Below are positions 3-37,288 of a stretch of DNA of 64,000 nucleotides, piece after piece. The notes beneath the pieces are model-generated. The model searched no databases. It had not been told where the DNA came from and was given only the letters and a program-made list of their open reading frames with translations. Location of the stretch: NCBI GenBank assembly GCA_009746045.1, contig RPFO01000034.1, positions 2,499,971 to 2,563,970 of the forward strand, given 5' to 3'. Source of the stretch: Mesostigma viride (taxonomy: Eukaryota > Streptophyta > Mesostigmatophyceae > Mesostigmatales > Mesostigmataceae). The number at the start of each line of letters is the position of its first letter. Position 1 is the first letter of the stretch. Both the position numbers and the translations under genes were made by a program.

Positions 3-3000
3 TGTCCAAGCCGCTGCACGAAGCCGCATGGGGCAGACACGAAGTGGCACCTGATGAACAAGTGTCCAGCCGCGGGCATCAAGACGGTCCACTTCGCCGA
101 GATGGCGGGCAAGACCGACTCGATGGAAGCCCAGGTGGCTGCCATCAAGCATGGTGAGGAGGCGACGGCGCCCCCCAACCAATTCGAGACGGTGTACCGG
201 GAGGACCCATTCTGGGCGCCCATGCCGGGTGACGTCGAGATCAACGCTGCGGAGGCTACCAAAGGCAAGCAGGCACGCAGCCCGCTTTCTTTTCAGCAGG
301 CACCCATGTTGCCTGCCGGGCAGTTGCCCGCGTCCTTTTCCATGCCGCTGGCTGGGGTGCAATCTGCTTTTGAGCATGCGAACCCTGCTGGGCTGGAGCA
401 GCGTAGGCGATTGGCGCCTGTGTACCCAATGCCGTTCATTGTGGACGTACCCATGTTTTCAGCACGGCAGGTGGTCGACACCTTCGGGCAGAAGGGGGTT
501 GAGTGGCTGGGGTCGGTTGTGTCCGAGATCCAGTTGTTCGCAGATGGGCATGATGTGCGCACCTTGCGCAATTCTGAGTCCGTCACCTACGGGCGCCAGC
601 CGGTAGAAGCCGCAGTGCCCGTGGTGCAAGCGGGAGTGGTCAGCACAAGTAGCCAGCAGCGCACTAGTGCAGTCCCCCAGGTTCCCACGGTGGTTCCATA
701 CCCCAATGGTGAGCCGTCCATGGCGTTCCAAGCAGTTGGAGCCTGTGGAGATGTATGGAGCGACATGGTGACATGTCCGTTGGTTGGCGCAGTCAAGCTT
801 GATAGCGGTGCTCAGCCGCTAGTCATCAGCACGGACTTGGCCACCATGCTGAACCTGACCTACGAGAACGGTGGCTTAGTGGAAAGCCCCGTGTCTGTGT
901 CAGGTTGGCAGGGTCCGGCTAGTAAGCCGTACGCTATGACGGCGGTTAAAGTCAACGTGATTTTCAATCCGTTGCGCGCCTCTAGCATGACCACCGTGTC
1001 CGCGTATGCGCTGGTGGTCAACAAGTGTGGATATTCCGCACTACTCGGGGTGGATGTCCTTGCTCGCGCCATGGTTCAGGTGGACTATAGGGCGGAGGAG
1101 GCATCTTACATCCCTGATTGGGATGGGGCTGGCCTGAAGCGGGCCAGCGTGCCGGTCTCATGCTTCAGTTCTTCAGCCGGGGCTGCACGCCTCAACCCTT
1201 CCGCGGCTGCGGGCGTGGTGGAGGTCAGCATGGTGGAGGTACGGGCGGCGGGCTCATCGGCGTGGGACAAGCATCGGACGGTGCTGCCCCAGCCAACGGC
1301 GAGCATTGCCAAGATGCGCACGCAGTGGTCGCTGGATGCTGTGACGTCCACGCGGCAGCTGGCTATGCGCAAGCGGGTAACTGAAGCCGTCATCACCATT
1401 CCTCAGATGGCCAGCCATGGCCTCACTTTGCTGCAACCGGGTGTCTCGGAGGCCCAAGGTAATTTTTCTGCTGCAATCTTACCGCAGGCCCCTGATTTTG
1501 CCAAGGGTGCGGTAGTGTTGGAACTGTTTGCGGGGATCGGAGGGGGCATTGCAGGCTTTTTGGCCGCAGGCGGCGTGTGCCGTAAACTCATCGCGGTAGA
1601 GCCATCGCACAAGGCGCGTCAGGTGTACTTCAGTCACTGTGGCGTGTTGTCGCGAGAGTATCCCGCGCAGTTTCCGCCATCAGCATGGCGTGACCCGTTT
1701 GGGGAATGTCCTCAAGATATCCGAGCCATCGGTGAGGTGCAGGTGCAGCAGTTGTTGCGCAGGCATCATGCCATCGACTTGGTAATTGCGGGTTGGGAGT
1801 GCCAGGGCCTGAGCCAGGCAGGGCAAGGGCGGGGGCTAGCCGATCCGCGTAGCGCGCTGTTCTGGGAACTGTTGCGTGTGGTGGGACTGTTGCAGTCGCG
1901 TCAGCCCCATCCGCCTGCGTATCTGTTTGAGAACGTTGTGGCGGGTGACAGCCCACATCAGGCGGTGCGGGAGGACTGGGCTACAATCGTGGCACTCCTG
2001 GGGGAGCCCATCGTGTGTGACAACGCAGGGCTGGGTGGGCTCACGCATCGTTTGCGTGCCTATTGGACCAACGTGGCGTGTGCGACCGATGTGCAGGCGG
2101 TCTTGGGGGCCGTAGCAAGGCAGCATCCGAGTGTGTCTGCGGAGGTAGCATTGCCTTCCCACCTAGTCACGCAGAAGGTGGATAGCGAGGATCGCCCACC
2201 GTATGCACGCGTCAACCGGGTCGGGAGCCCCATGTGTGCACTGCCGACCCTGGTCAGTTACCAAGGGTCGACAGCATACCGTGATCGGGGTAAGGGTCTC
2301 GTTTGGGACACTACCACCGGTCTGTTGGTGCAGCCACCCGCAGAATTTCGTGAGGCCAGCATGGGTTTTCATGTCGGGGCCTCGGCGCTGCCGGGCGTGC
2401 TCGAGAGTGAGCGCTGGTCTTTGATAGGCCAGGCTATGTCGGTGTTGCAGGTCGGGTATGTGCTGCTTGCATCGGTTGCCGTGCGCCAGTCTGGGGGGGC
2501 GTCCCCAGCCAATCCGCCTCAGCAGGTTGAGGCGCGCGCAGCCAAACTGAAGCGCCCTGCAGCGACGGGGACTTCATCAGCATGGGGGTGGCGTCTGCGA
2601 CAGGTGTGGACTATCATTCTCATGACCGCCCTGCTGACCAGCACCGTGCTGGCCGGCGAGCCCACGCTGCATCGGGTAATACACCGTGCGGCACGCGAGG
2701 CTCCGGCGGTGGGTGTCACACCAGGCGTGGCAGCCTTTTCCTTGTTCCACGACGATGCGGCTAGGGCGCCGCATCTTGAGGCACATGCGGTAGCTGTGGG
2801 TGATCCCGCGGATACGCACCCCTGGGCTATTGGCGAACACCTTTCTGATGCGCAGCGCTCAGCCATGCTAAAGTGGCTAGGCACTGCAAGGGGGGCCTTC
2901 GCTTTCACAAGTGATGAACTGGGGTGTTTCAATGGTGGGACCATGCGTGTTCCATTGGACACTGACACCCCTTTGTTCCGACGCCAGCATCGCCTGAGTC

Positions 3001-3455
3001 AGGCCGAGTTGGATTTTGTAGCCGAGCAATGCAAGGAGTTAGAGGATGCCGGTATCATCAGGCAATCTTCCTCCAGCTATGCCGCTGCCGTTGTCGTTGC
3101 GCCCAAGAAGGACGCTATCACCGGGGCATGGACGGGTATGCGCATGGCCACCGATCTGCGGTTGCTGAATGCACACACACCCGTGGACCGTTACCCCATG
3201 CCACGTGTGGATGATGTCCTGGATAAGATATCTCCTCATGTGAAGTTTGTGTCCTCGCTGGACCTGCGTAGCGGCTTTCATCAGATCGCAGTTGCGCCGG
3301 AGGATCAGCGGAAGCTTGCATTCTGGGGGGCGGCAATTTGTATGAGTGGGTGCGCATGCCCTTTGGGCACCGCAACGCTAGTGCTGTTTTCCAACGAGCT
3401 ATGGACAAAGTGCTTGCAGGTCTTCCTTTCGCCGCTTGTTACATTGATGATGTAA
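3..3455 (+). CDS. gag tail - protease - C5 DNA methyltransferase - RT (N-terminal part)
   Basis: The frame is open from base 3, so the protein starts upstream; residues here are numbered from the ATG at 54. Codons 3-62 give a Cys/His-rich stretch that may be a degenerate zinc knuckle. A retropepsin motif LDSGA has its Asp at 250, with ALLG near 329-332. A C5-methyltransferase domain spans about 484-815: motif I ELFAGIGGG, motif IV WECQGLS with Cys583, motif VI ENV at 626-628, motif VIII RLR at 666-668, an EFREASMGF block like motif IX and a GQAM block like motif X. The usual Pro before the catalytic Cys is Glu. A hydrophobic stretch follows at about 850-870. The RT begins near 960 and has catalytic Asp1070 in LDLRSGF. 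The frame is lost in the G run at 3325-3330 and the RT continues in the next frame from about 3338. Methyltransferase capture by LTR elements is established for charophytes and dinoflagellates; activity of this copy is inference. Confidence 0.85.
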   Translation, partial: CPSRCTKPHGADTKWHLMNKCPAAGIKTVHFAEMAGKTDSMEAQVAAIKHGEEATAPPNQFETVYREDPFWAPMPGDVEINAAEATKGKQARSPLSFQQAPMLPAGQLPASFSMPLAGVQSAFEHANPAGLEQRRRLAPVYPMPFIVDVPMFSARQVVDTFGQKGVEWLGSVVSEIQLFADGHDVRTLRNSESVTYGRQPVEAAVPVVQAGVVSTSSQQRTSAVPQVPTVVPYPNGEPSMAFQAVGACGDVWSDMVTCPLVGAVKLDSGAQPLVISTDLATMLNLTYENGGLVESPVSVSGWQGPASKPYAMTAVKVNVIFNPLRASSMTTVSAYALVVNKCGYSALLGVDVLARAMVQVDYRAEEASYIPDWDGAGLKRASVPVSCFSSSAGAARLNPSAAAGVVEVSMVEVRAAGSSAWDKHRTVLPQPTASIAKMRTQWSLDAVTSTRQLAMRKRVTEAVITIPQMASHGLTLLQPGVSEAQGNFSAAILPQAPDFAKGAVVLELFAGIGGGIAGFLAAGGVCRKLIAVEPSHKARQVYFSHCGVLSREYPAQFPPSAWRDPFGECPQDIRAIGEVQVQQLLRRHHAIDLVIAGWECQGLSQAGQGRGLADPRSALFWELLRVVGLLQSRQPHPPAYLFENVVAGDSPHQAVREDWATIVALLGEPIVCDNAGLGGLTHRLRAYWTNVACATDVQAVLGAVARQHPSVSAEVALPSHLVTQKVDSEDRPPYARVNRVGSPMCALPTLVSYQGSTAYRDRGKGLVWDTTTGLLVQPPAEFREASMGFHVGASALPGVLESERWSLIGQAMSVLQVGYVLLASVAVRQSGGASPANPPQQVEARAAKLKRPAATGTSSAWGWRLRQVWTIILMTALLTSTVLAGEPTLHRVIHRAAREAPAVGVTPGVAAFSLFHDDAARAPHLEAHAVAVGDPADTHPWAIGEHLSDAQRSAMLKWLGTARGAFAFTSDELGCFNGGTMRVPLDTDTPLFRRQHRLSQAELDFVAEQCKELEDAGIIRQSSSSYAAAVVVAPKKDAITGAWTGMRMATDLRLLNAHTPVDRYPMPRVDDVLDKISPHVKFVSSLDLRSGFHQIAVAPEDQRKLAFWGAAICMSGCACPLGTATLVLFSNELWTKCLQVFLSPLVTLMM

Positions 3456-5936
3456 TCGTCTTTAGCGCGACATTTGAGGAGCACCTGGCGCACTTGGAGC
3501 AGGTTCGCTTGGCTCTCGAGGAGCATAATATGCGGCTGCACCCTGAGAAGTGCAAGTTCGCCCAGCGGACCCTCTCATTCCTTGGTCATCAGATTGTGCC
3601 GGGTGGCCGGACGCCTGATGCCGCCAAGGTCGAATCCATTGTGCAGGCCGCCGTACCCACGGATGTCTCAGGGGTGCGGGCGTATTTGGGTTTGGCTGGC
3701 TATTACCGAGGTTACATTGAGAACTTCAGCAGCAAGGTGAAGCCCTTGACCGAGTTACTCAAGAAGGGGTGCGTGTGGGCGTGGGGTCCCGCACAGCAAC
3801 GCGCCATCGAGACAATCAAGCAGGAGCTCACGTCGGCCCCGATTCTGCGCGCCCCTGACTATGCTTTGCCGTTTGTGTTATATACCGACTGGTCCAAGGT
3901 AGGACTGGGTGCGGTCTTGGCGCAAAAGGATGGTGATGGGCGCGAGCACGTTATTGCTTATGCTAGTCGCAGCAACAACCCAGCGGAGAGCCGGTATTCT
4001 TCCTATGAGGGGGAGGCACTGGCTGTGGTGTGGGCCATCAAGCACTTTCGCCCGTATTTAGTTGGGCGCGTGTTTACTCTGGTGACAGACCACCAGCCGC
4101 TTCAGTGGCTAATGACCAACACCAACCTGACGGGTAAGCTCGCCCGATGGGCCATGATTATCCAGGAGTACCACATGACCATTGTGCATCGGGCCGGCAA
4201 GGACCATGTCAACGCCGATGTGCTATCCCGATACGCCATGCCTACCACTGTTGACCACACTGGAGCCCGGGCCATGGGTGCCGAGGGCTCGTCGGGTTCT
4301 GTGGTCTTTGTGAACGCTGCTGGGTATGCGGCCGACGATGAGGAGGAGGCGTGGTGGCGCAGTGTCGAGTACTCTGTGGCGGACTTCGGCATCAGCGACG
4401 ACCCGGTGCGGCCGTCGCCATTCACGCCATCCAAAGCTGTGTGCGCTATGGAAGAGGGTAGGTCTCTGTCCTTTGACATTGATCCTTCTCTGCAGCAGCT
4501 GATCGCTGTGCAGGCTCTCTTAGCGCGTAGCTCTCTTGCTGATTGCTACACCGCTGATATCTGGCTAGATGGTCGAGTTTTGGAGCAAGTGCAGGGTGCT
4601 GTCTTGACTCCTACTCCAGTCGATTGGACTCCTGCTCAGAAGGCGACGGAGTTGAACAGGGTGCAGCACAGGGCTGCAACCTATGGTTGGGAAGATGGGG
4701 TTTTGTACAAGCTGTTGGGCAAGCGTAGGGTGGTCGTCCCACCGCCTGACAAGCGCGTTGCTATAGTGCAGGCGTACCACGAGCGGTATGGTCACTTGGG
4801 TGGCAATCGCACGCTCAGCCTCGTACGGACCAGCTATTGGTGGAATAACATGCGACACACAGTGGCCCAGGTAGTGGCCAGCTGTGTCCCGTGTGCTCGA
4901 ACCAAGGCTAACTTTAGCGCAGATCATGGTGCCAAGGAGCTGATGTCGCTTCCCATCAAGGGCTTGTTTTATCGCTGGCACGTCGATCTGTGCGGGCCGT
5001 TTCAGGAGAGCCCTGACGGCAACCTCTATGTCATGGTATGCGTGGAGAGCTTTAGCAAATGGGTTGAGTTGATCCCCATTGCTGACAAGCATGCCGCTAC
5101 CACAGCGAAGCATTTTGCAGACATCATCACCAGGTTTGGGGCTCCCGCGGAGGTAGTCACGGACCAGGGTGGTGAGTTCAGGGGTGAGTTCCAGGAGTTG
5201 CTGGATGGATGTCTTATTGATCACCGTCGCACTTCTCGGGAGCATCCTCAGGCCAATGGTTTGGCTGAGAGATTGGTGCAGACCGTCAAGCAGGCGCTGC
5301 GCAAGTGGAGCCTGCAGGTGCCGGAGTCGGCCAGGTGGGATCGCGAGTTGGCATGGATTGCCATGGGTTATCGCATGTCTCCCCAGGAGTCTCTCGCTAC
5401 CTTCTCCCCGTATTTCCTTCTGTTCGGGCGTAATCCTCTTTTGCCTACGGAGGCACAGGTTGCGCACCCCGAACCCATGGCCTTCGACAACGCTCAGCAA
5501 TTTTTGGTTGAGGTGCTGGCCAGGGCAGAGACTTTTAAGAAGGTCATGCCCATCGCGATGAACAACTTGTTCATTGCTCAGCACAGGGACTCCCTGCGTT
5601 ACGCTCAGCGCCGGGGGGGCGCATACATGGCTCGCCAGCTGCGGTTTAGGCCAGGGCAGTATGTTTTCCTGCGCACTCAGCTGAAGCACACTTTGGATGT
5701 GGAGGCGGGGCCCACCATTTTGCGCATTGTGGCTATCAAACCATCGGGAGTGGCAATTTTGGAGGGCGCCGACGGGAGCCGTACGACAGACAACCTCAGC
5801 AATCTCAGTCCCTGCTCACTGCCCAATTTGGTCCACGACCTCCAACCGCACACATCTCGCCGAGTCAAGGACGCCCAGTGTCAGGTTTGTCACCGGGTCG
5901 ATCAGGCGGAGTCCATGTTATTGTGTGATCAGTGTA
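3338..5936 (+). CDS. RT (C-terminal part) - RNase H - integrase - first half of PHD finger
   Basis: Residues are numbered from the ATG at 3338, which is only the first Met after the frameshift. RT motif YIDDV lies at 35-39. RNase H follows, with catalytic-type Asp184 in YTDWS and DHQPL near 250. The integrase has an HHCC zinc module (His481, His486, Cys516, Cys519) and a DDE core of Asp550, Asp609 and Glu644, with the classical 34-35 residue spacing. A basic C-terminal integrase region follows. The last segment begins a PHD finger with two Cys pairs, CQVC and CDQC. The coding sequence is then cut by a DNA transposon: the frame runs to a chance stop at 5980 inside the insert, and the true continuation is at 16932. 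All catalytic residues of RT, RNase H and integrase are present in this half. Confidence 0.88.
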
Positions 5937-6190
5937 CAGGGGCAGCTCACGTAGGTGGGACAGTGTTCCAACTCCGGTAGGTGGGACAAATTCAGCAAAG
6001 CGGGACATGTTCAGGTGTCCCACCTAACTGAAATTATGTCCCACCTTGTTGAATTTGGAAAAACATGGTGTCCCACCTACCGGCATTTGTGATACAGGTC
6101 TGTCTCACCTACCCGAACTTGAAGCTGTGTCCCACCTAACTGTATGTTTCTATGTGTCCCACCTTCCTGAATGTAGTGGCTACGCACATA
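5937..6190 (+). repeat. Left terminal inverted repeat and subterminal GTCCCACCTA array
   Basis: After the terminal repeat, GTGTCCCACCTAACTGA-like units recur about every 30 bp, mostly as GTCCCACCT and near the tip in the opposite sense (AGGTGGGAC). The right end of the same transposon carries matching units. Such arrays are often transposase-binding sites; that role is inferred. Confidence 0.7.
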
Positions 6191-7639
6191 TGGGCTCTAT
6201 GTGTCATACTCCTACATATGTTATACATACATTCTGATCATATGTTATACATACATGTCCCTATTACTCCTATGGGGCATGCTACCTATTCTGCACGTTT
6301 GCTCATGGCGTAGGGACACTTGATCTGTGTGCAACCGATAATACGCTGGAAATTAAATCAATCAAGTGCAAATATGGTAGTTCTTGCAGATTTGTATGAC
6401 AACATTGTTATTGTTATATGGTGCATGGGGGTGGGGTTAGAACCCCCACCCCCACCCACTTCACCGCACTTCACCCCACTTCACCCCACTTCACCCCACT
6501 TCACCCCACTTCACCCCACTTCACCCCACTTCACCCCACTTCACCCCACTTCCCACCCCCCCCCCCACCCCACCCACCCCACCCCCACCCCACCCCACCC
6601 CACCCCCCCCACCCCCACCCCACCCCCACCCACCCCACCCCACCCCACCCCCACCCCACCCCCACCCCCACCCCCACCCCCACCCCACCCCCACCCCACC
6701 CCACCATATAACAACAACATAACAACACACCACGATAAGAAATGACATCGTGGTGCAGTCGCCACCGCCATCATCAAGGAGACAACCTGCGCAGGCCAGA
6801 AATCGGGAGAATTCGGGCAATCATGTACAAGACAACAGGCTCCAGGTCAGCCAAGCGCTCGTACGTGCGAAACTTGATGACTGGGTCTGCAATCGCCATA
6901 ATCCAAGTGATGCACATGTACAACCACGTCATAACTCGGAAGCTTTGGATTAGGATCATAAAAGATTGACTCAAACAATTACCGTGCTAGCAAGATGTGG
7001 GCAAGAGAATGCATCCATGGTTGTTGTAATGGTGTAAAAAGGGTGCCAGATTTTCAAGTAAGGAATCATGAATAACCATGCCGCACCTCATGGCCATGCA
7101 TATACATGGTGGCAAAAAATTTCACATCATCCACACGGCCATGTGTGTGCCTGCACGTGTATGGTTGTGAAAATTGACAGCATTTTTATTATGCACACGC
7201 CCATGTATGCATGATTGCCTATGACGTCCACGCAGGCATTAAAATTCACAAGGCCTCGCATTCGATCGTGCTTGCAAAAAACTGTCCATCAACACAATAC
7301 GCCTAGCCTGCAGCCTGCATGTAGTGCATGGTTGCACAAAACAGAACTACATGAACACAATGAATGAATGCGCAAACTTTGTGCCCACACTTGGAATTAC
7401 CCCAAACTGAACAACGCGGTTATAATGCACATGGCCTCACATTTACTCATGCGAAAACCCTTTAAGCATCAGCACAATGGCCATCATGAGGAACCCAGCA
7501 ACGGGATTCGTGATTGGAAGGATTCTGAATCACGCACCTGTGTTCAGTCATATTTGCAAAGAACCGACATCGGGTTGACCAGAGCTGACGTCCACGGACC
7601 ACTCTTCGTCACTGGAATTCCCTTCATTATCCTCAGAAC
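6191..7639. other. Non-coding interior with a minisatellite; no gene seen
   Basis: The stretch holds a decamer array CACTTCACCC (about ten copies from 6459) running into C-rich CCCCCA/CCCCA repeats to about 6704. After that comes A/T-rich unique sequence with recurrent GCACATGG/CATGCAT words. Proline/threonine-rich open frames across the minisatellite are artefacts of the repeat. No splice-supported gene was found. Confidence 0.6.
6455..6706. repeat. CACTTCACCC minisatellite and C-rich microsatellite
   Basis: About ten tandem decamers CACTTCACCC are followed by a run of CCCCCA and CCCCA units. The strand asymmetry (one strand almost pure C and A) gives long open frames in every phase. Confidence 0.9.
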
Positions 7640-8065
7640 TTAATTGGGCTCAGAGCTTGAACCAGCTGCGACGTGTAGAAACTGCCCCGGCTGCTTGGTC
7701 GGTAAGAAAATGCATTTCTGGGTGCGCACCAGCTTCCAAAACTTCTCCGAATCCCCGGAATCTGAAGACCCCCCGGAATCTGTTCTTGCCAAAACGGCCT
7801 CCGCTTCATTCCCTTGCCGGTTGTGAGTCTCAGAAGCCAAGGATGCAGAAGCTGGTTGTTCTTCCTGGATCACTGTAAGACCTGAAGGCGATGCCTTGGT
7901 ACTCATGTCCTCATCATTTGTAGAGGACGCTAGGTCTGGGGTGGAGTTCAACTCATCATCAACATCAACGCTGGGCTGGACCTTCACCGGTGTAGAGGCC
8001 CCGGAAGCTGCCTCATAAGCAGCCTCCGAATCTGCCTCTGAACCATGATGAAGCGCTTTATCCAT
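7640..8065 (-). CDS. Hypothetical acidic, Ser/Glu-rich protein (141 aa)
   Basis: A minus-strand frame opens with ATG at 8065 and stops at 7640. The protein is rich in Ser, Glu, Asp and Ala, has no hydrophobic segment, and ends with a more ordered part containing KFWKLVRTQKC. I recognise no family. Its composition is unlike the surrounding A/T-rich DNA and it is the longest frame in this part of the transposon, so it could be an element-encoded accessory protein or a single exon. It diverges in direction from the pogo-like gene further right. It could also be a chance frame, since no copy is available in the window to test conservation. Confidence 0.3.
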   Translation of the reverse strand: MDKALHHGSEADSEAAYEAASGASTPVKVQPSVDVDDELNSTPDLASSTNDEDMSTKASPSGLTVIQEEQPASASLASETHNRQGNEAEAVLARTDSGGSSDSGDSEKFWKLVRTQKCIFLPTKQPGQFLHVAAGSSSEPN

Positions 8066-8261
8066 CGTTTCAAGAAGAAAAACAAGCTATATGTACCGCT
8101 GCTCACGTAGTGTAAGTATTTATGCAGTTAACGATACTTGATAATAAAGCCACGTCGAATTATATACAATACGTATGTGCGGTGTAGTGAAATATTGGTC
8201 TTGGTAGTGATATGTGACCACTTGTGTGTACATGTACACAGTACAGTACACCGCCTCACGG

Positions 8262-8612
8262 GTACGTGGGCTGTTCCCACACCACGTGGAAGTGGGACGT
8301 TTGCGTACTACGTAGCCGTGAAAGTGGGACGGTTCGCGTACCACTTAGCCGTGAAAGTGGGACGGTTCGCGTACCACGTAGCCGTGGAAGTGGGCTGTAT
8401 GCGCCTGTGGGACGGTCTCAACCACAATCTGAGTACGTGGAACAGGTGCCCCACCTTGCCGCGTAGGTGGGACAGTCCCATCCAAAATCCGAGTACGTGG
8501 AACATGTGGCCCACCTTGCTGCGTATGTGGAACAGTCCCATCCAAAATCTGAGTACGAGGAACAGGTGCCCCACCTTGCTGCGTAGGTGGAACAGTCCCA
8601 TCCAAAATCTGA
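8262..8612 (+). repeat. Approx. 60-bp direct repeat array, left part
   Basis: Units containing TGAGTACGTGGAACAGGTG, then CCCACCTTGCTGCGTAGGTG and CAGTCCCATCCAAAATC, recur about every 63 bp, preceded by shorter AAGTGGGACGGTTCGCGTAC units. The array stops abruptly at 8612, where a hAT-like element is inserted, and resumes in the same orientation at 14224. Confidence 0.8.
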
Positions 8613-8639
8613 GGCTGAACTCACAGGTCCGGGGAACAG

Positions 8640-8820
8640 GTGTGCGAACGGGTGTGCGAACGTGTGTGCGAACAGGCCGAGTCGGGTCGAGCTAATTATA
8701 GGACCGACCTGTTCGCACAAGCGTTCGCAACTGGACCAACCCGTTCGCCAACTCCGGGGTTTTGGAAAGTTGGCGAACGAGTGTGCGAACGGGTGTGCGA
8801 ACGTGTGTGCGAACAGCAGA
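8640..8820. repeat. GTGTGCGAAC subterminal repeats, left end
   Basis: GTGTGCGAACG units occur in direct and inverted orientation (GTTCGCACA) here and again at about 14100-14200 near the other end of the hAT-like element. Clusters of short motifs near both ends are typical transposase-binding arrays; function is inferred. Confidence 0.75.
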
Positions 8821-8884
8821 TGGCGCGAAACGATGGACTAGGCGACCAAATCACCTCGTTCTCGCGGGAAGCTAGGCGAGGCAT

Positions 8885-10619
8885 GCGTATGGTGGTGGCT
8901 GGCAGCCATCAATTAATTAATAATGTGGTTATTTACACGTCGACTTCGTCTCGTGGGCACACACCGCGTCCTTAGCAGGGTGGAAATGGAATGCATATGG
9001 GATGAATGACTGTCTAGCTTCTAGTCGCGAAGCCGCGGGCACCACGGCCGACTCGAACCCGCCTGGTTTTCTTATCATAGGCGGAGTCCTTCTAAACTAG
9101 CCGAAAAAAGGTGAAGGCAGTCCTAGCCAGCAAGAGTTAGGCCCTGCCAGCGCCTCGGATAGCAGCGCGGGCGACGTATCTTCTATGCAACCTGCGGCGG
9201 AAGGCGATTGCGGCGTCAATCAAATACGGCAGAACCAACTTCAGCCAAGCTTGCTATAATCGTTCCGGCATCAACGTAAAAAATTCCACTCGTCAGATAT
9301 TGCATGCTGGCGTTGCGGATAGGGAGACGCGGCCGTCCGACGGTAGGGCGGTGGATGTGTTGGTTTGCACGAACTGTCACGTTGAATTCGACGCATGCTG
9401 TTCAATGATTCATGACGTTGGACGGTGGGTCAAACAATTTTTTTGGAATGTTTTCAAGGCATTCTCCCTCTGCAACTCATCAATCATGCAGCCACATGTA
9501 GGTGACCTCGCCGTCCAATGTTTTGTCTCATAAGGTGCCATATCATGTCAGTCTTCTTTATAAAAACATCGCCGTCACGTCTTTGCGACAATGGCCAGTG
9601 TGTCGAGGAGGATGGCGCTTAGCAAGCGATAATTTGAGGTAAAATCATTAGACACCTGGGTTCAGATGATTGTGTTATCTTGATATCAGGTGGCCTAAGC
9701 CTTAAACCATCTGGTATAATCCATCAGATCAATCATGCCCTGGGCAGCCCCTTGGCTTTCTTGCGGTGGCATGGTATGCCAACTAGGAATGAAGTGCCTT
9801 CCAGCGCAGTCAGTACACATATGGAATGGGAGGGGTTGTATAAGAGGTGGAGGGGCTGTTGTGGCATGCATAGCTGAAGTGCACAGAATCTGGCCCTATA
9901 CTAACATAAAATTGTGTGCGTGTATTCTCTTTTTCCTTCTTCGTTTGTTTTATTTCCCCCTCAAACCCTTTTTGCTTTGTTATCGTCTGTCTCCCTCCAT
10001 GCAGGTCTTCCTACAGATAGCCACGCAGCTCCCGACAAATCAGTGAGACAAGTATTCCTGGACGCATGGCGGTCTTACGTCGTGTGAGGACTACTAGTAG
10101 TCGTCTGAGAGGAAAGGCGCGAAGATCATGGGGGGGGTCTGTAGGAAGACATACGTGGAAGGAGAGAGAATGGTGAACACAAAAGGGCTGACCGGGTGGT
10201 GGATGGAAAATAATAAAAGTTAAAACAAAAAATAAAAAGGGGATGAGAAGAAGAATAAACAAAAGGGACAAAGAGGTCATTGCTGGGATATGATAATTAA
10301 TAGGCAATACGTTGGGCTAAGGGTCAGGGGTTTCTAGTTCGTAGTTTGAGCGCCCGTGGTTCCCAGGATCTCCATCCCAACAATCTGGGTCAAACGCCTC
10401 CTATAACCAGCTCACTCCAGTTCATAGGTGGAAGGTGGAAGAGTGTATCAAGGAGACAACCAGAGATGGAAGAGTGTATAAGTAAGTTTTATTGAGTCAG
10501 ACAACTATTCATTTTATTAAGTGAGACAACCATTCATGGACGCAAGTAGTGAAAATGAAAAGAAAAGAAGAATGATAGATAAGTAGCACATGATAAGAAT
10601 ATTGTAAGATTACGTTAAA
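8885..10619. other. Interior of hAT-like element, no gene seen
   Basis: Mostly unique sequence without long conserved frames. On the minus strand near 9050-9062 there is a tRNA B-box-like GGTTCGAGTC, but I could not fold a full tRNA around it. The stretch 10430-10540 holds duplicated GAGACAACCA/TTATTAAGTGAGACAACC words. Nothing else was recognised. Confidence 0.5.
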
Positions 10620-10866
10620 GTAAAGATAAAGAATGCCCAGGTCCCCAAGGACAATGAACCCGCCTCCTGTTGTGGGGAAGAAGCCTACTTGCGCCTACAT
10701 GGGAAGAATGGCCTAAGCGACCTAGGAATGCGACCTAGGATCTGGCTCCATCTAGATACAATAGACCAGTAGGAGTGTGTGCATGCCGCCCCCTTCAAGC
10801 CATCCATTGGGGTTAATACTCCGTGACTCCCCAACGGGAGCACGAGTTTTATTAATTAATTAATCA
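10620..10866 (+). mobile_element. LINE 3'-end fragment 1 (5'-truncated)
   Basis: The sequence parallels the 3' end of the longer LINE fragment that follows: a ...AGGAGTGTGTGCATG... stretch, a GGTTAATACTCCGTGACTCC block, the inverted repeat around CTCCCCAACGGGAG, then a TTAATTAAT tail. Only the last coding codons and the 3' untranslated region remain, as expected for 5'-truncated target-primed insertions. Confidence 0.7.
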
Positions 10867-10949
10867 TAATAAATATAATAAACATAAAGAAGAAGAAATG
10901 AGATTACAGCAATAAGTTAAAAAAAAGACTACAGAAAGTTATCTCACTT

Positions 10950-12166
10950 AATAAGGAAATGTGTGGCAGGGCTGCATGCGTGCTGTCGCCCTACCTGTTC
11001 ATTATTGTTGTCGAATACGTAATGATTCAGGCGCGCAAGCGATTTGCCCGCATCGTGGGCAGGGAACCAGGAGTGCAGGTTGCTAACAAATTCTGGCATG
11101 GCGGTGCGGACACGGAGATTCGGCTCGCAGACATCATTTACGCATGCAGACGACACCACCCTCTTTGAGGACACTGAGCACGTGCAGACATGGCTTGACT
11201 GCCTGGCTCTCGAGGCCCGTGCAGTAGGGCTTGAGGTCAGCAAGAAGACAGAGGCCCTGGCGGTTGGGCTCACCACCTCAGCGCCGCCCCTCTATCTCCT
11301 AGACGGCTCTCGAGTCCTGTATCGGGACCGCGTTAAGCTGCTGGGCAGCCTGCTCCCTAGCTGCGAGGTGGATGTGGACCACCGCATCTCCCTCGCCTGG
11401 CACGCTTTACGCCAGTACCGGGCCCTATGGCGCAAGCCCCTGGGCAAGATCGAGAAACAGGACCTGTTCAAGGTCCTCGTCCTTCCTGTTCTCACGTATG
11501 GCGCCGAGACGTGGACCCTCACCGCCGACCTGGCCCGCAAGCTGGACGGCGCGGTCACCAGCATGCTGCGTTCCATTTTCAGAGTAGGATATGCTGCTCA
11601 TGTCCGCAATGAGGACCTGTACCAGGGCATGCCCTATATCACCAGCACAATTAAGCAACGCCGCCTGCAGCTAGTAGGGCACCTAGCTCGCACCAACCAG
11701 GTAGACACCTCACGTGGCCCCCCCGCAGGACTGCGACCAGCCCAGCCTGGCCGGCACCTCCTGACGTGGGCTGGGCCCAGTGATGTTAGACGCCGCAAGG
11801 CCCGCACCTTCAAAGAACAGCTAGTAGAGGACATGGGGGCCTCGGCCTCTCCGTGATTTGGAAGAAGATGATGGACAAGGCCAAGTGGGCCCAGGTCATA
11901 GAGGACAACGAGCCCCCCCCAGTGGGGAAGCGCCCGCGTGTGCAATCCCGCGGGAGGCACGCTAGATAGCTCCCCCTAGGGCAGCGTGCGGCTGCCTAGA
12001 TAGATGTTGTAGTTAGAATGTTGTTAGATAGATGTAGTATGTAGCCAATGTAGATAGATTAGACCGGTAGGAATGTGTGCACCCATCCATCCATCCATCG
12101 GGGTTAATGCTCCGTGACTCCCCAACGGGAGCACGAGTCTAATTAATTAATTAATTAATAAGGAAA
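10950..12166 (+). mobile_element. LINE 3' fragment 2 with RT C-terminus
   Basis: The fragment runs from within the reverse transcriptase to a 3' tail of AATTAATTAATT. The 3' untranslated region has the same GGGTTAATGCTCCGTGACTC block and hairpin CTCCCCAACGGGAG as fragment 1. The 5' truncation near 10950 is typical of LINE insertions. Confidence 0.8.
10959..11968 (+). pseudogene. Non-LTR reverse transcriptase, C-terminal part, frameshifted
   Basis: RT block LSPYLFIIVVEYV is read first. The catalytic YADD block at about 11137-11155 is broken by a 4-bp TGCA duplication, after which ADDTTLFED is read in another frame. Downstream are the typical LINE C-terminal motifs LPVLTYGAETWTLT and RRLQLVGHLAR. 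A second frame change near 11845 leads to a basic tail ending at TAG near 11966-11968 that matches the C-terminus of the LINE at 54832-55503. The copy cannot encode an active RT. The motif set fits an RTE/CR1/L1-like elongated C-terminus; I do not assign a clade. Confidence 0.8.
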
Positions 12167-13940
12167 TATAGAAAGTTGAATAAATATAAAGTAAAAGCAT
12201 AGATAATTTAATTAATATGAATAATAAGAAAGATATTGGTAGAAAGAAAATGTGATCAATAAGGTATAAAAAGGTAAAATAGGAAAAGGAAAACAGGTGG
12301 GAAGGAAAACTCCCCACAGCAAAAAGAAAATGGGTGTGCCATGTAAGGGAAATCGAGGAACTTACTTGTAGGAATGTGGGGGCTCTCATATTTCCTTTGA
12401 TGCAAGAAAATATGAACACTGCGTGAAAGCCTAGTAGGAAGCCTTCCGTGCATGAGGCGACATCTCCTTATCATTCAATTTTACAAATGTACGTCTTATG
12501 TGGTATGCTACCAAGTAGGTTGCATCATTCACCGCACATATGTACACCGCACGTAGATTGTCATGCACATGTGCAGTGATTGGCATGTAATGCTGGCCTT
12601 GCGTGTAGCAGTGCAGGTCACCAGAGTGGCATCTGATCCTGGCACCTGGCCCAAAGGCCAAAAGGTGCATGTTGTGAGTGAGGCGCATGCACGCCCAAGG
12701 TACGTTGTCAAGTGTAATGTGATGCCTGTCACGATTTTTTGTCATGCACAACCCAACCAGCATGCTTACAGTGGTGGTAATGGTGCATTAGCTCTTGCTC
12801 GTCACAGTGACACCAGCATGAACTTCGCATATTCTACCTGCCATGTACGGTATAAACTCCCGAGAGCACATAATATACATTCGAATATATACAAAAAGGC
12901 TCCATACCAAGGTATGTGAATGGAAGCAAACATATGCCATTGTGTATGGTAATGCCCCAACCACAATCGTCTGTCCAGCTCATTTCACCCAGAACCAGCA
13001 AGTCGTACAACGCCTTCATCAAAGCTTCCTTAACAAAATCCCCGGCATCGCGCCGTTGCTGCACCGAGTGTGTTGGAAGTGACACCGGAACTGACTCAGT
13101 CACAGTTGCGGGCAATATACTTCAGAAAACCCTTTGACGTGGTGTCCGGAGAGACGACGTCACGCCGCACATTGGGACCTCGCGGGCGCTGAATGACAGG
13201 TCCAATCTCGTCAAGAAGATAATCGAAAGCGTCAAGCGTGACCTGAGACGTTTCCTGCATCAATCTCCCGCAGTCTCAGGATCGCCTCGTCGCCACCTCC
13301 TCATCTGGAACGCGAAGTCATTGATCCTTTCAATGGACTCAAAACCCGGCGTGACACCCGCGCAGTTGCGAGGCCCACGCCCGGCGGATCATCTTCTCTG
13401 ACTGCGCGGAACATGTCCTCGCGATTAGCCCCCCCCCCCCCCCCCCGGCACGAGCACGTGATGGTATTAACAGATCCCGTTGCTGGCGAAGCTTCTGCCT
13501 TTTATAAAGCGTAGCCATCATCGTACGTATACTTTGCCAACCCATGATTGCTGCCAGAAACGACTAACGAGGAGTGGGGAAAGGCTATCAAACGGGAAGC
13601 AGATCAAGGATACGAACGCCTTTGTCTAACCAGGCCAAGAATCGAGTCACAGCCAAGAAATACGCCAGCCTACTCTAGCTAAGACGAATGGCTGCCCAAT
13701 GACGCTTGTAATGTAACTACAGAGAATAACTGACGCGTAGAATGCCAAACTAGAACGCAGGTATATAAGTAACTCTCTCGAATAGGATCGACGCCAGGAG
13801 AACGTCATGAACAAGTCACTGTGGCAGACATGCAATGTGGAGGGGAAATGACACAAAACCTTTGGTGCAATCCCAAAAGCTACAAAGATCCGTAGCGAGA
13901 TCACGTTCGTGATGGCTAGAAGCAGGAAGCACTGATCAAG
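12167..13940. other. Interior of hAT-like element, no gene seen
   Basis: A/T-rich sequence with short runs, a poly-C run of about 20 at 13427-13446, and no frame I can support. Minus-strand frames here and up to 14360 have no recognisable domain. Confidence 0.5.
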
Positions 13941-14223
13941 TGTCGGCCATAGTTTGGAATGATGACCATGAACGCCGACGATGTCACTTTGCTGGAACGT
14001 GCAGGTTGTGGCCAGGATCGGTCCGCGCCAAGGTGCGCCGACTTTCCCGCGCAAATTCTTCTGTGACCTTCCCCAATGAGCATTTCCGACCCTGTGAGTC
14101 AGTGAACGGGTGTGCGAACAGGCCGGCGAACAGACGCGACGAAACGGTTCACACGGCCGTTCGCAAACCCGTTCGCACACCCGTTCGCACACCTTGTTCC
14201 CCCGGACCTGTGAGTTCAGCCTG

Positions 14224-14395
14224 AAATCTGAGTACGTGGAACAGGTGCCCCAACTTGCTGCGTTGAGTTGCTGCGTTGGTGGGACTGGCTCTTCCAAAAT
14301 CTGAGTACGTGGAACAGGTGGCCCACCTTGCTGCGTTGGTCGGTGGGCTGTCGCATCCACAATAAACGTACATCAGTACACGTGGCACTGTAGGC
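14224..14395 (+). repeat. Approx. 60-bp direct repeat array, right part
   Basis: Units CTGAGTACGTGGAACAGGTG continue in the same orientation as at 8262-8612. Together with the AAATCTGA duplication this shows that the array was continuous before the hAT-like insertion. Confidence 0.8.
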
Positions 14396-14600
14396 GCCCC
14401 ACCTTATGAATTCCCCTTCTGCCGGCGTAAAACATGGTATATACTGTAAGGAGGTGAGAGAGGCACACGCTGGCTACGTACAGTACGTTGGCACGTGACT
14501 TTTGTTAGAGAGTGCTAGTCAGCTGCATCAGTTAATGATCAATTAACTAATTATTGAACACGTGACTGCATCCGTGGTCTGAGGTCTCTAACTATATACG

Positions 14601-16430
14601 GTGAGCCGCTATGGCGAGCGGCACAGGCGAGCCGGAGTGCAGTCCATATCATCCGCAGGGCCAGCTGTCGGCGGCTCGGGTGATGCCCCCGCAGGTCTGG
14701 ACCTGCAAGCTTTCTTGTGCCGCATGTCACCGAGGACGAGGGAAAAGCAACTACGACAGGCAGGGCTAACCACGGCATCAGAAGCGGGGCTGGTAAACTC
14801 CGACAAACCAGCTGACAAGGGCGAAAAAGTAAGCCGTGCGCCGCGAGATGAAATTACGTTCAGGGATATGCGCACCAAGCGGAAGATTCTGGACGCCTTT
14901 CACGAGAGCGGATTGTCGCAGCGCCAATTCTGCAAAACTAGCGACCCCCCCATCCCGATTTCAACCTTCAACCGCATGCTCACAGAGGAGGCGGCCATCA
15001 AGGCTGCAGCAGACAACCCCAAGCTAGCGGGGAAGAAGTGCCCAAGTCGTGTCAGAAACCCGACTACGGCCAAGTTTCCCTTGGTGGAGAAAGAGGTGGC
15101 CACTGAGATTCGCGAGTATCGGAGCAAGGGGTACATGGTCAACCGCGCGCTTGTGCGCGTAAGTTTATTTCCATCATAATTGTCGGTATTTTTCCTGCTG
15201 CATTTTGTACATGTCGCACTAGTTTGCTGAGTTTCGATTGTTTCATGAGTATGCATGCAGCCCGGCCCCGTGAGAATTTGACGTGGAAGAGCTCGAGCCG
15301 AAAGTATGTAATGGTCTTCTTCGTTGCATGCAGCCAAATGATGCAGCGTAACCACCCAGCAACGGGTGATCATGAATTATGTAAGGGTTGGAAACTAGCA
15401 GTCTTGCTCATTTCTTGGCGATGTATCCCAGCTGCCCCCCTTTATTTGAAAGATATTGCTCATGATGCAAGAAGGCTGGAGCAGTGAAGGCAACCTGGGA
15501 CAAGGCCGGATGTGAGGCAGCTGACGTGGTGGGAAGGGGGGGGCAGCCGACCAGGTGGGGGCAGCAGGGGTCGGCAACCCAGCGGCGGGAGCACCACCAC
15601 CAACGGATCAGGCCACCCGCCCAGCCAAGAAAAAGTCCAAGCCTTCTCTCCCTCCTCTCGAGCTTCCGCCACAGCGCACTGTGGCAAAGCATGCCGAGGT
15701 GCTGACAACGGCGGACTGGGCCAAATACCAGGTTTTCACCTTGTATGGTGACGGCCTGACGTACTACGGAAACCCTGACCCACAGGACCCGTATGCAAAG
15801 AAGTATGACAACCACTGGCGCATGGTGGTCAAGTAAGTATCGTTGCATGGGTTGGCTCCAAGATATACTGGACCATTTATGTGACAAGAATGTACACTCT
15901 GTATGTAACTCTGCAAACCCATGCCATGTGTGACTAGGTAGCATGCAGTACATATGTCTACCGCACACATGCGACAGGTCACGCCGGCATGATCAAATGG
16001 GCCAACATATTAGTAGGCGTATGAGCACACACACATCACACATCACACATCACACATCACACATCACACATCACGCGTACATCACACGTACATATGCACT
16101 GTCACACGCACATGCACCACAACACAGGGACGCATCCCCCCACACCCCCACACCCCCACACCCCCACCCCCACCCCAACCCCAACCCCCCCCACCACCAT
16201 GTACTGCCGCCGCCGCCGCCACCACCACCACAACAACAACAACCACCAACAACAACAACAACATTGTACTTCGCATTTGTAATGCATTATTATGGTGTGT
16301 GGTTGTGTGTCTTGGCACGTTTCTTATGTGCAGGTACCCTAAACAGCATGAGCAGAAGCGCACGGAAAGGGTGAAGCAAACGTTTGTGATCGCTGACTAC
16401 GGAGTCGCATGGTGCCTTGTTGCGATGTAG
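14601..16430 (+). CDS. Spliced gene with pogo/CENP-B-like DNA-binding region
   Basis: The first exon is open from at least 14601 (first in-frame ATG 14724) to a GTAAGT donor at 15159. Around 14860-14990 it reads TKRKILDAFHESGLSQRQFC followed by STFNRML, a psq-type helix-turn-helix; a second block FPLVEKEVATEIREYRSKG resembles the CENP-B/Tc5 helix-turn-helix. These two domains in tandem are characteristic of pogo-like transposases. A later exon ends at 15832 with a GTAAGT donor. Its intron runs to a TGCAG acceptor at 16333, and the joined codon AA/G keeps the frame to TAG 16428-16430. The C-terminal part (TYYGNPDPQDPYAKKYDNHW) matches nothing I know. The boundaries of middle exons between 15254 and 15560 are unresolved. 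No DDE triad is visible. Confidence 0.55.
16021..16262. repeat. Intronic microsatellites (CACATCA, CCCCCA, CCACCA/CAA)
   Basis: Short tandem arrays fill the last intron of the pogo-like gene. They account for the His/Pro-rich and Gly/Val-rich frames seen on both strands here. Confidence 0.85.
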
Positions 16431-16660
16431 ACTTTTCCCTGTGGGCCCAACTGCCCTTCATGTTTTTAATATCTGGCCATCATGTTGTAAACGGAGGTAT
16501 TAGGGTTGCGTCATTAATAATCGCACCCGCCTGCCGTATTTCTGGCACACCTTGAATAGGCTAGGTAGGGCTTGCCGTGACCTTTCCGGCACAGTTTATA
16601 TAGCACTGAAACGAGTGCAGACAGTATAGCTGAAACTAGCTCATTATAGGTGTTACACAT
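16431..16660 (+). repeat. 3'-flank segment shared, inverted, with 44690-44890
   Basis: The part around CTGGCCATCATGTTGTAAAC, GGAGGTATTAGGGTTGCGTC, CCGCCTGCCGT and the following CCTTTCCGGCACA reappears as reverse complement at about 44690-44890 with scattered differences. It lies just 3' of the pogo-like gene, so it is probably that gene's 3' untranslated region. Confidence 0.7.
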
Positions 16661-16669
16661 CCATGCCAC

Positions 16670-16929
16670 ACAACTCGGTGGGACATGTCCCACCAACCTG
16701 TGTTTTGTATGTGTATGAACATGTGTCCCACCTACATGTAATTGAAAATTTGCCTGTCCCACCGACCTGAATTTTGAACATGTAACTGTCCCACCACACT
16801 GAATTTTGAAAGCTACCCTGTCCCACTTACATGAATACCTGAAACATGGCTGTTCCACGTACCTGAACCTGGTGTCTCTCCTAGGTGAAAAGTGTCCCAC
16901 TCGCGTCCCACCTACGTGAGCTGCCCCTG
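16670..16929 (+). repeat. Right subterminal GTCCCACC array and terminal inverted repeat
   Basis: About eight GTCCCACC(T/A)(A/G)CNTGAATTTTGAA-like units at roughly 30-bp spacing end in the terminal repeat CACCTACGTGAGCTGCCCCTG. This matches the left end of the same transposon. Confidence 0.75.
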
Positions 16930-16931
16930 TA

Positions 16932-17086
16932 ACTGTGGTTGGCACATGCAGTGCTTGCAGCCCGTGGTCACCAGCATTCCGGAGGGGGATTGGTTTTGTC
17001 CAGTGTGCACCGCTGCGCAGTTTACCTCCCGCAGCTTGACTGCGGTCACCGCTGCCCTTGTCTTGGTACGATCGCTGTCTTCGTGA
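16932..17086 (+). CDS. Second half of the PHD finger and pol C-terminus, separated by insertion
   Basis: After one TA of the duplication is dropped, base 5936 joins 16932 in frame. The next residues supply the missing ligands: NCGWHMQC provides the His-x2-Cys, and GDWFCPVC the last Cys-x2-Cys and the conserved Trp. Together with CQVC and CDQC upstream this is a canonical Cys4-His-Cys3 PHD pattern. The reading frame ends at TGA 17084-17086, followed by a G-rich tract. PHD fingers bind histone H3 tails in many chromatin proteins. At the end of an integrase this would be the position where chromovirus elements carry a chromodomain, so a role in target-site choice is a reasonable inference. I cannot tell from the residues which methylation state it would read. 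Confidence 0.85.
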
Positions 17087-17103
17087 TGGGGCCGGTCGCC
17101 AGC

Positions 17104-17113
17104 GAGGGGGGGA
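17104..17113 (+). promoter_or_regulatory. Candidate polypurine tract of the methyltransferase gypsy element
   Basis: An uninterrupted purine run with seven consecutive G lies just 3' of the pol stop codon and just before the TG of a possible LTR at 17118. Copies A and C of the chromodomain gypsy family in this window have a similar G-rich tract directly before their LTRs, which supports the reading. No second LTR is available in the window to confirm it. Confidence 0.4.
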
Positions 17114-17255
17114 ATCATGGGACAGGTCCTCGCCCACCCCACAGGGCATGCAGTTAAGGCAGGCACATCAGCTCAGCTCATTTGGGTTTTACCAAATTAA
17201 GCTGAGTGGCCAGCCGCCATGGTGGCGCCGGAGATTGTGGCACGCAGACGCGACA
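17114..17255 (+). repeat. 142-bp direct repeat, copy 1
   Basis: This segment (ATCATGGGACAGGTCC ... CAGACGCGACA) is identical by eye to 21326-21467. Copy 1 directly follows the G-rich tract after the gypsy pol stop. Inside it, CCGCCATGGTGGCGCCGGAG looks like an LTR end (CA) followed by a primer-binding-site-like TGG. It could be the start of the element's 3' LTR; the repeat is too short and its flanks too different to prove this. Confidence 0.85.
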
Positions 17256-18127
17256 GCTGTCACGGACGCGCGCTATGTCATCCGGGCGCCCACTATGCAC
17301 AAGACCGGTGACGTGCGCAAGGAATTTGTCTTCTACGCATTTTCGACAAAGGCTAGTGACCGGGGGGGGACACTAGCACTTGCAGCATAAGAGCGGACGA
17401 AAGTGTACGTGCACGCGCGCCGGGCCAGGCACAGCTGGGCGCGCAGCACTGACTTGAGCGGACGGCAGCACAAGTGTGCAGCGTCGAGAGGATCATACGC
17501 GTGTTAGTGGACAGCTGGAGCTGAAGCTGGACTGCTGGACTTCAACAGCGCCGAGGCTATTGACAGGCCAGGTGTCTTTGTGGTGTAGAATAGCGGGTCA
17601 ACGTTATGAGGACTGGACAGAAAATGGAAAAGGACAATTTGCGGTGCGGAGCCAGATCGCTGGAATGAATGCGAAATCGCTGGCAGCCCTAAAAAGGGAT
17701 TTCTTCTAGAAAGGAACGATTAGACGCAATGTTTGCTGGGCCACTCACACGCAAGGTGTGAGCGTGCAGATTGTCTGAAGGATATTATGCTTCGACCTTG
17801 CTGGACGTGACTCAATGTCGGACATTCCCAGGGACAGAAATGCCGGAGCCTCTAGGAGATGAGATCGGCAACAGGGTAGCAATTTAGATTTGTCGGGATG
17901 CCTTCCTGCTTTTGTTGGCATGTGTGGTAGAAAGCCAGGACGGCAACTGGAATGCGGTTTCTATTCGCATGGTTCAGGCAGCAACACATCAATCCGAAAA
18001 CCCATTTTCTTCCCCTGGAAAATATTTGGAGATGGAATAATGGTCAGTTTGACCTCAAATTTGGCACCAAGGTTCCTTATCAGATATCTTATGATGCCAT
18101 GTGGTCAAAAAAATTTTTGGGAGTTGG
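17256..18127. other. Anonymous sequence, no gene seen
   Basis: A short frame continues from the repeat to about 17390 (ARYVIRAPTMHKTGD...) but matches no family I know. The rest is unique sequence with no motif, splice-supported frame or repeat recognised. Confidence 0.4.
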
Positions 18128-19150
18128 CAGCATGGTAACATGGTGACATTTGCTAGCAAAAAATACCGTATTTTCAGCACTTTCTGGCATGTATGCATAT
18201 ATAATGACATCAAATGAACTCAGTTGGGCCTGGAACTTCGCACATGTTCTAAACACATCCCATGCAGCATGCCCACAAAGTTTCAGGCTGGTTGGATGAC
18301 AAATTGGTGACAAATGCTAGCATAAATACCCAAAAATGCAGTTTTTCATGGGTTTTTAAGGGTTTTATCACACATATGCATACATAATGACACCAAATGA
18401 ACTCAGTTGGGCCTGTAACTTTGCACATGTTCTAAACACATCCCATGCAGCATGCCCACAAAGTTTCAGGCTGGTTGGATGACAAATTGGTGACCAATGC
18501 TAGCATAAATACCCCCAAAATGCAGTTTTTCATGGTTTTCCAAGGGTTTTATCACACATATGCATACATAATGACATCAAATGAGCTCAGTTGCAGCTGG
18601 AACTTTGCACATGTTCTAAACACATCCCATGCAGCATGCCCACAAAGTTTCAGGCTGGTTGGACGATAATTTGGTGACAAATGCTAGCATAAATACCCCC
18701 AAAATGCAGTTTTTCATGGTTTTCCAAGGGTTTTATCACACAAATGCATACATAATTACACCAAATGAGCTCAGTTGGAGCTGGAACTTTGCACATGTTC
18801 TAAACACATCCCATGCAGCATGCCCACAAAGTTTCAGGCTGGTTGGATGACAAAATGGTGACTGATGCTTGCGACCCCCCCCCCCCAAAAAATGCAGTTT
18901 TTCATGGTTTTCCAAGGGTTCCAACACATGGGTGCCTATATCAATGAACTCAGTTAAGCCTAGAACTTTGCACAGCTCATAAAAACATCTATGTTAACTG
19001 CCCACAAGAAATTCAGACTGTTTGCATGACAAATAGGTGACAGATGCTAGCAAACATAGCACAAAAAATGCAGTTCCTAGTAATTGTTTTTCAAGGGTTT
19101 CATCCCATAGTTGCATGTCAACCATTCCAGTTTGGGATATATGATCAGGT
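18128..19150 (+). repeat. Satellite-like tandem array, about 184-bp unit
   Basis: The marker CACATGTTCTAAACACATCC occurs at 18241, 18424, 18608 and 18792, giving periods of 183, 184 and 184 bp. Each unit also has CAAAGTTTCAGGCTGGTTGG and GACAAATGCTAGCATAAAT. Units after 18890 are progressively diverged and fade out near 19150. Short frames in the array recur with the unit and are not genes. Confidence 0.9.
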
Positions 19151-19281
19151 TCCCAACAACACATCTAGATGATATATTATGTGATATTGCAGGAAGGCAG
19201 ACTTAGGGGCACAAGCCCATGATACAACGTCAACATGTACATCAACAACACACACGTAACTTAGCTAATCTTCATAATAAA

Positions 19282-19282
<1 letters not shown>

Positions 19283-19361
<79 letters not shown>

Positions 19362-19365
19362 CACA

Positions 19366-19425
<60 letters not shown>

Positions 19426-19472: not shown

Positions 19473-19482
19473 ACATAGTCAT

Positions 19483-37284: not shown

Positions 37285-37288
37285 TTAA

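Follow-up and report, generated by a model that had tools for sequence, protein, structure and literature searches.

Retrotransposons that carry a C5 DNA methyltransferase (MTase) have been described before. KnitGypsy-Dnmt3 of Klebsormidium nitens is a gypsy element with a DNMT and DIRS-like repeats (de Mendoza et al. 2018, PMC5890265), and an element of this general build is already known. In the cited part of the 2018 report the role of retrotransposon MTases is left unclear (PMC5890265); a 2025 survey, in the part cited here, lists them again (PMC12344493). Searches of the open-licence literature turned up no further gypsy element with a C5 MTase. Here we describe a 64,000-nucleotide stretch of the Mesostigma viride genome (GenBank assembly GCA_009746045.1, contig RPFO01000034.1, forward-strand positions 2,499,971 to 2,563,970), called the window below. 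A Ty3/gypsy-like element on the + strand is already under way at its 5' edge, and it carries a C5 MTase-like domain in Pol. This domain is under purifying selection in two families of such elements, and in both the proline beside the catalytic cysteine is replaced with glutamate.

A first reading of this DNA, made from its letters alone (the sequence-only reading), had pointed to MTase capture by long terminal repeat (LTR) elements in charophytes and dinoflagellates. Precedents do exist, but a gypsy LTR element is involved only in the charophyte case; in the cited part of the report, those of dinoflagellates are long interspersed nuclear elements (LINEs) and DIRS elements (PMC5890265).

The Pol methyltransferase has Glu-Cys at motif IV

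A PF00145 match (E 2.9e-11, 43.8 bits with a cut-off of 22; E 1.4e-12 on the piece 1449-2510) places the domain in frame between the gypsy protease and the reverse transcriptase (RT), where the sequence-only reading had put it. That reading had located the catalytic Cys and ENV exactly, and the further motifs that it named (I, VIII and X-like) can be read (Table 1). The S-adenosylmethionine (SAM) motif I, the catalytic Cys, ENV and RxR are all present. The Pro-Cys pair of motif IV is absent, and Glu-Cys (WEC) stands in its place. Calling the MTase full and intact had therefore been an overstatement. Among the relatives compared at motif IV (97 hits, reduced to 85 by a length filter and to 64 by a redundancy filter), the residue before the catalytic Cys is Pro in all 64. 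Glu-Cys was found in each of the 30 family loci read at the DNA level, with the same motif IV codons throughout, and also in three sequences of a second family (L163, L167 and L164). Decay of the window copy as the cause of WEC was rejected on these grounds.

The MTase of the second family is 64-66% identical to that of the first, and in L163 it sits in Pol ahead of RT, RNase H and integrase. Between the families, the nonsynonymous distance (dN) is 0.28-0.29 and the synonymous distance (dS) is 2.3-3.7 (saturated), and there are no stops. The differences of L163 fall 88/78/208 on the three codon positions. Random change of equal amount left at most 42% identity and introduced a stop in 200 of 200 runs. 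Identity between the families is 81% in RT, 65.5% in the MTase and 49% in the linker, and the four sequences compared from the two families do not differ at GWECQG, ENV, HRLRA or IGQAMS. The MTase is under purifying selection, and the Glu-Cys pair has been kept across both families. Since it is shared by these four sequences and by all 30 loci, the motif is old and retained, not the product of damage.

A young and numerous family

We searched the 440 Mb assembly (2243 contigs), locating copies of the family through the MTase itself. A PF00145 profile search gave 127 matches. A search with the MTase protein gave 115 scored matches among 518 candidates, all of them stop-free over the full 354 residues, with bit scores of 797.8 (97 matches) or 794.1 (18 matches). 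The other copies that the sequence-only reading had suggested looking for thus exist, and the domain is a feature of the family and not a chance insertion.

By our own tally, the open frame at these 115 places is 2074 amino acids (aa) long in 39 cases, 1042 aa in 21, 1195 aa in 10 and of other lengths in 45; the window copy belongs to the 1195-aa class. The 30 loci compared are 99.6-100% identical across the part present (2.8-4.0 kb) and, being so alike, by themselves say nothing on selection. Two one-base length differences recur in homopolymer runs in RT; 12 of the 30 loci have the one, five have the other and three have both. They fit the 1042-aa and 1195-aa classes; the remaining short frames have other causes. 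These length differences may mark real subfamilies or may be assembly errors. The family is young and numerous, and it has been transposing recently.

Architecture of the complete element

A complete copy of approximately 10.7 kb (contig C1579, 6248197-6258924) contains two long frames of 615 and 2074 aa, the only ones of at least 200 aa on its strand within the copy. The 615-aa (gag) frame gave no Pfam match. The PHD finger in Pol is complete (PF00628, 36.0 bits, profile 1-47 of 47). Repeat A, of 1.14 kb, occupies the left end and recurs near the right end (1138 of 1141 columns alike), and repeat B, of approximately 0.14 kb, flanks the right-hand A on both sides. The order is A - gag-pol coding - B - gc - A - B, that is, the repeats are split. 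The arrangement B-gc-A-B was also present in both other right ends read (C1468 and C1690) and, interrupted, in the window copy.

The outer ends of the element read TGTC...GACA. Ten copies were examined for target duplications, and all seven with both ends readable have one of 4 bp (AGCT, TAGT, AGGT, CCCA, GGAG, TGGG and AGCA, the last with one changed end base). Three copies were left out of this count: C1646, whose left end differs and consists partly of N, and C2133 and C1657, whose right and left ends, respectively, are not where expected.

The Pol order protease-RT-RNase H-integrase is that of Ty3/gypsy elements, as is a DDE integrase (rve and H2C2) with short target duplications. Two like LTRs, also expected of that class, were not found; in their place are split repeats (A-coding-B-A-B) as in DIRS elements. 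No tyrosine recombinase (PF00589) was found in the gag frame or in the searched 1491-aa part of the C1579 pol frame. The element combines DDE-integrase behaviour with DIRS-like split repeats, an unusual pairing that has been reported for KnitGypsy-Dnmt3 (PMC5890265).

Relationships of the methyltransferase

A structure model of the MTase has a predicted DNMT3/HhaI fold; a single-sequence fold was uninformative (pTM, the predicted template modelling score, 0.20). In VIA, HhaI and DNMT3A tie. The best PDB match by phmmer is a DRM at 26 bits, with HaeIII near it at 21.9. A quick tree took in 24 of the 64 viral MTases and 7 of 15 from the same genome, with DNMT3A (branch 4.8) as the sole eukaryotic reference from outside. 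In this tree the element MTase, which has a deviant make-up and a stem of 4.7 changes per column, sides with DNMT3A and the 24 viral enzymes, apart from the seven same-genome MTases (98% in the SH-like approximate likelihood ratio test, SH-aLRT). We read the domain as a putative C5 MTase of the DNMT3 side in which the Pro next to the catalytic Cys has become Glu.

The best sequence relatives in the collections searched come from viral contigs and phages and are DNMT3-like MTases (L024-L103, L002-L004); no retroelement was noticed next to them, though no search aimed at this was made. They have the motif VIII YWTN block in common with the element MTase, but all 64 compared read Ser-Pro-Cys at motif IV where the element has Glu-Cys. 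The viral contigs held no close relative of the MTase or of the RT-integrase region, 246 phage records gave weak partial matches, none over 80% of the query, and the plasmids gave two weak records only. The WEC DNA pattern was met elsewhere in 2 viral and 17 prokaryote stretches, which by our own estimate is about chance level; it is in frame in 4 of these 19, and by eye none of the four looks like an MTase.

Capture from a host MTase of the same genome was considered and rejected on the basis of the 15 other PF00145 places examined (of the 127), none of which is near, the best match having an E of 1.3e-7 and 27% identity over 142 residues. All 15 have PCQ, a count that is partly the result of selection as the frames were chosen by a PC[QN] motif.

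Further C5 MTases were seen in this genome. Among them is a separate multi-copy family of dcm-like enzymes with PCQ, in which a 364-aa frame scores equally at ten places (C35, C47, C64, C79, C340, C389, C815, C1517, C1809 and C1935, seven of them being L105-L111). Its relatives are L104 and L170-L180; others are approximately 63-99% identical among the rows printed, and many lie on small contigs. Its carrier may be a different mobile element or a virus. Two more C5 MTases lie in long frames, L168 (C1402, 2065 aa) and L169 (C1562, 1059 aa), and are candidate host DNMTs; L168 has a motif that we take to resemble that of DNMT1.

Possible function of the Pol methyltransferase

We consider it likeliest, with a probability of about one half, that the Pol MTase is an altered but active enzyme and continues to work on nucleic acid, because selection has kept the active-site Cys, Glu, Asn and Arg together with the Pro-to-Glu change. 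Such an enzyme would bind SAM, and its substrate would be either cDNA of the element itself or the DNA where the element inserts; its efficiency or its choice of targets may have changed. The PHD finger, judged from its sequence, suggests chromatin tethering, and would hold the integration complex there. In the fullest version of this proposal, the element would be a combined chromatin writer and reader (MTase plus PHD finger), with a working Glu-Cys MTase of changed chemistry, target or control that is selected across at least two diverged families of a recently transposing retrotransposon. As a whole, we think this version unlikely.

Several observations weigh against an active enzyme. Pro precedes the Cys in each of the 64 relatives. 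In the cited part of the literature, this Pro is called invariant and said to hold the target base, and its loss in OsDRM3, where the Cys is kept, is taken as a sign of inactivity (PMC2965745). The second family (B) has Gly where the first (A) has Asp110 and, in our own reading of the alignment, Gly again at the position of the motif IX Glu. The KnitGypsy MTase gave no methylation when tested in yeast, a result that its authors called inconclusive since human DNMT3B failed too; the SymbioDIRS MTases did give methylation in the yeast test (both from the cited part of PMC5890265). CpG observed/expected is 0.81 in the element versus 0.69 in the rest of the window and, as it is not lower than in the surroundings, no particular mark of self-methylation is visible. 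When codons are controlled for, the element's two frames have 0.75-0.76 of the CpG expected at codon junctions (z scores of -3.6 and -4.2), and six other frames tested are lower still (0.11-0.67). Since the copies are very young, no extra CpG loss is expected whatever the enzyme does.

Within the window, a Copia-like element at 25763-29331 (RVT_2 weak, under cut-off) shows extreme CpG loss, with junction CpG at 0.11-0.27 of expectation and an excess of TG. Strong depletion of CpG, paired with extra TG, in the window's other elements suggests, indirectly, that the host methylates and mutates CpG.

The domain may instead be a pseudo-MTase of the kind that DNMT3L and plant DRM3 have been proposed to be. 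It would then have lost methyl transfer and be kept for a different role, such as binding DNA or SAM, Pol assembly, or recruiting a host DNMT to the new copy. We regard this as a real possibility, at less than even odds. The replaced motif IV Pro, seen in all loci read and in the second family, fits it. Dnmt3L and the DRM3 clade, which are changed at Pro-Cys, are reported in the cited part of the source to be conserved and needed for de novo methylation though thought inactive (PMC2965745), and the present genome has in L168, with its PCQ intact, another MTase that could be recruited. However, at a dS above 2 the domain still has its Cys, its ENV, the two motif VIII Arg and motif I. Had it been freed from catalysis, one would expect the Cys and the pair of Arg to be gone. 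In the DRM3 proteins, as described in the cited part, the Pro-Cys pair is gone (OsDRM3 has only the Cys left), as are further motif residues (PMC2965745).

It is very improbable that the MTase is a functionless passenger, captured by chance and intact-looking only through the youth of the copies. The near identity of the 30 loci is what such a passenger would show, but the stop-free copies and the selection seen between the families (dN far below dS, changes concentrated at the third codon position) strongly disfavour it. A host or viral MTase gene beside an unrelated retrotransposon, or a mis-assembly, for which only the RT frame break of the window copy and the insertions after RT would speak, is refuted by the single 2074-aa open frame through the MTase at 39 of the 115 places and by the complete C1579 copy, with the same domain order and a 4-bp target duplication.

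An altered but active enzyme and a retained adaptor could be told apart in this family, which is testable because its copies are young and numerous. Methylation of fresh insertions could be read copy by copy against MTase-less elements of the same age. The conserved Glu-Cys pair also offers a natural experiment on two questions: whether the motif IV Pro, regarded as invariant, is required, and whether it is an enzyme or an adaptor in the manner of DNMT3L that such elements retain.

The copy in the window

The coordinates of the window copy are collected in Table 1. Its first Pol frame runs on 5' of the window, reaching 1195 aa in the genome, and together with a second frame (3272-5980, 902 aa) it spans the Pol of this copy. 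The protease was assigned by its motifs; the Pfam match is weak (PF13650/PF13975, E 0.014, under cut-off). The RT is frame-broken near 3330-3340, since RVT_1 profile positions 2-94 and 111-205 sit in different frames, and the uninterrupted frame with RT that the sequence-only reading had claimed does not hold for this copy. Just after the MTase, a hydrophobic stretch (RQVW[TS][IV]ILMTALLTS) resembling a membrane segment is kept between the two families within a linker that is only 49% identical; it is an unexplained feature for a Pol polyprotein.

Table 1. Features of the methyltransferase-bearing element and of its insertions, in window coordinates.
Feature	Position	Strand	Remarks
First Pol frame (pol start, protease, MTase, RT part 1)	3..3455	+	1150 aa, 5'-open
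Aspartic protease core	801..1055	+	motifs DSGA 801-812, LLGVD 1041-1055
C5 DNA methyltransferase-like domain (P0001 residues 17-347)	1497..2489	+	PF00145
Motif I FAGIGGG (predicted SAM binding)	1527..1547	+	
Motif IV GWECQGLS	1791..1814	+	catalytic Cys 1800-1802; Glu (1797-1799) replaces Pro
Motif VI ENV	1929..1937	+	
Motif VIII HRLRAYW	2046..2066	+	two Arg
Motif X-like IGQAMSV	2424..2444	+	
Hydrophobic, membrane-segment-like stretch WTIILMTALLTSTVLAG	2607..2657	+	just after MTase; alike in second family (L163)
RT part 1	3102..3323	+	RVT_1 profile 2-94; 20.6 bits, under cut-off 29.6
Frame break in RT	3324..3340	+	at G run; common to other family copies
RT part 2 with YIDDV (3440-3454)	3332..3595	+	RVT_1 profile 111-205; other frame (3272-5980)
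RNase H	3857..4171	+	PF17917, E 8e-39
Integrase zinc finger H2C2	4739..4909	+	PF17921
DDE integrase core (rve)	4970..5248	+	PF00665
PHD finger part 1, split by insertion	5879..5936	+	PF00628, 21.4 bits (cut-off 24), profile 1-25 of 47
Later insertion, approximately 11 kb, inside PHD finger	5937..16927	.	inverted ends CAGGGGCAGCTCACGTAGGTGGGAC
Element resumes: PHD remainder, pol end, repeat B1 (to 17255), GC, right-hand repeat A from 17258	16928..17984	+	
Second later insertion, approximately 2.9 kb, inside right-hand repeat A	17985..20912	.	inverted ends CACATCAATCCGA / TCGGATTGATGTG
Element resumes: rest of right-hand repeat A, repeat B2 (21326-21467), right end GACA	20913..21467	+	

The window copy is broken by the frame break in RT and by two later insertions that split its 3' part. 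The first, flanked by TGTA (or TA) left and right, resembles a large DNA transposon. GTAGGTGGGACA-like words lie near both of its ends, 14 of them occurring in the window (at most one mismatch) against 0.48 expected. The second, which contains 184-base tandem repeats and an ACGC array, also looks like a DNA transposon. Truncation of the copy at 5936 was considered and rejected, as the element resumes beyond each insertion, at 16928 and 20913. Compared with the C1579 copy, positions -1444 to 5936 (window numbering) have zero mismatches and one gap, and the two resumed parts are 99.9% and 99.3% identical. B1 and B2 form a direct repeat of 142 bases starting at 17114 and 21326. An N run stands to the left of -1444, so the left end cannot be called absent. 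A neighbouring copy, upstream on the contig, ceases to match where the window copy is first interrupted, at element position 9128 (window numbering -12557), and the first insertion may therefore be shared by duplication.

A second gypsy element lies at 31811-38611, with an RT approximately 35% identical and without an MTase between protease and RT; inverted partial repeats (86-92% complementary) are found at 45226-46173. No Rfam family and no tRNA were found within the window.

Comparison with known systems

The host assembly, at 440 Mb, is larger than the genome of K. nitens, which is about a quarter of that size. LINEs, which include further MTase carriers, integrate by target priming. The element described here shares with KnitGypsy-Dnmt3 a gypsy Pol, an in-frame C5 MTase that is unrearranged and intron-free, DIRS-style repeats and purifying selection on the MTase (PMC5890265). 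By description only, KnitGypsy-Dnmt3 is said to keep the key residues, whereas WEC is found here, and the C-terminal PHD finger has no counterpart mentioned for it in the cited part of that report (PMC5890265). SymbioDIRS-Dnmt3 and SymbioLINE-Dnmt are also retrotransposons with C5 MTases, and the DIRS ones likewise join MTase and RT in one frame; according to the same part of the report, however, DIRS elements integrate through a tyrosine recombinase, in contrast to the DDE integrase and 4-bp target duplications seen here (PMC5890265).

DRM3 and DNMT3L resemble the element MTase in having a change of the Pro (or of Pro-Cys) of motif IV in a conserved protein. They are host proteins, most of them lacking the Cys in the cited description, whereas the element MTase is mobile and keeps it (PMC2965745). 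Sola1-1_Ec32 of Ectocarpus is another transposon with a DNA methyltransferase domain, but it is described in the cited part as a DNA transposon, with a ParB protein and a domain of the N4-cytosine or N6-adenine type (PMC12477816). Set against the parts of the literature examined, the Glu-Cys pair kept in two families and the occurrence of a PHD finger together with the MTase are apparently new.
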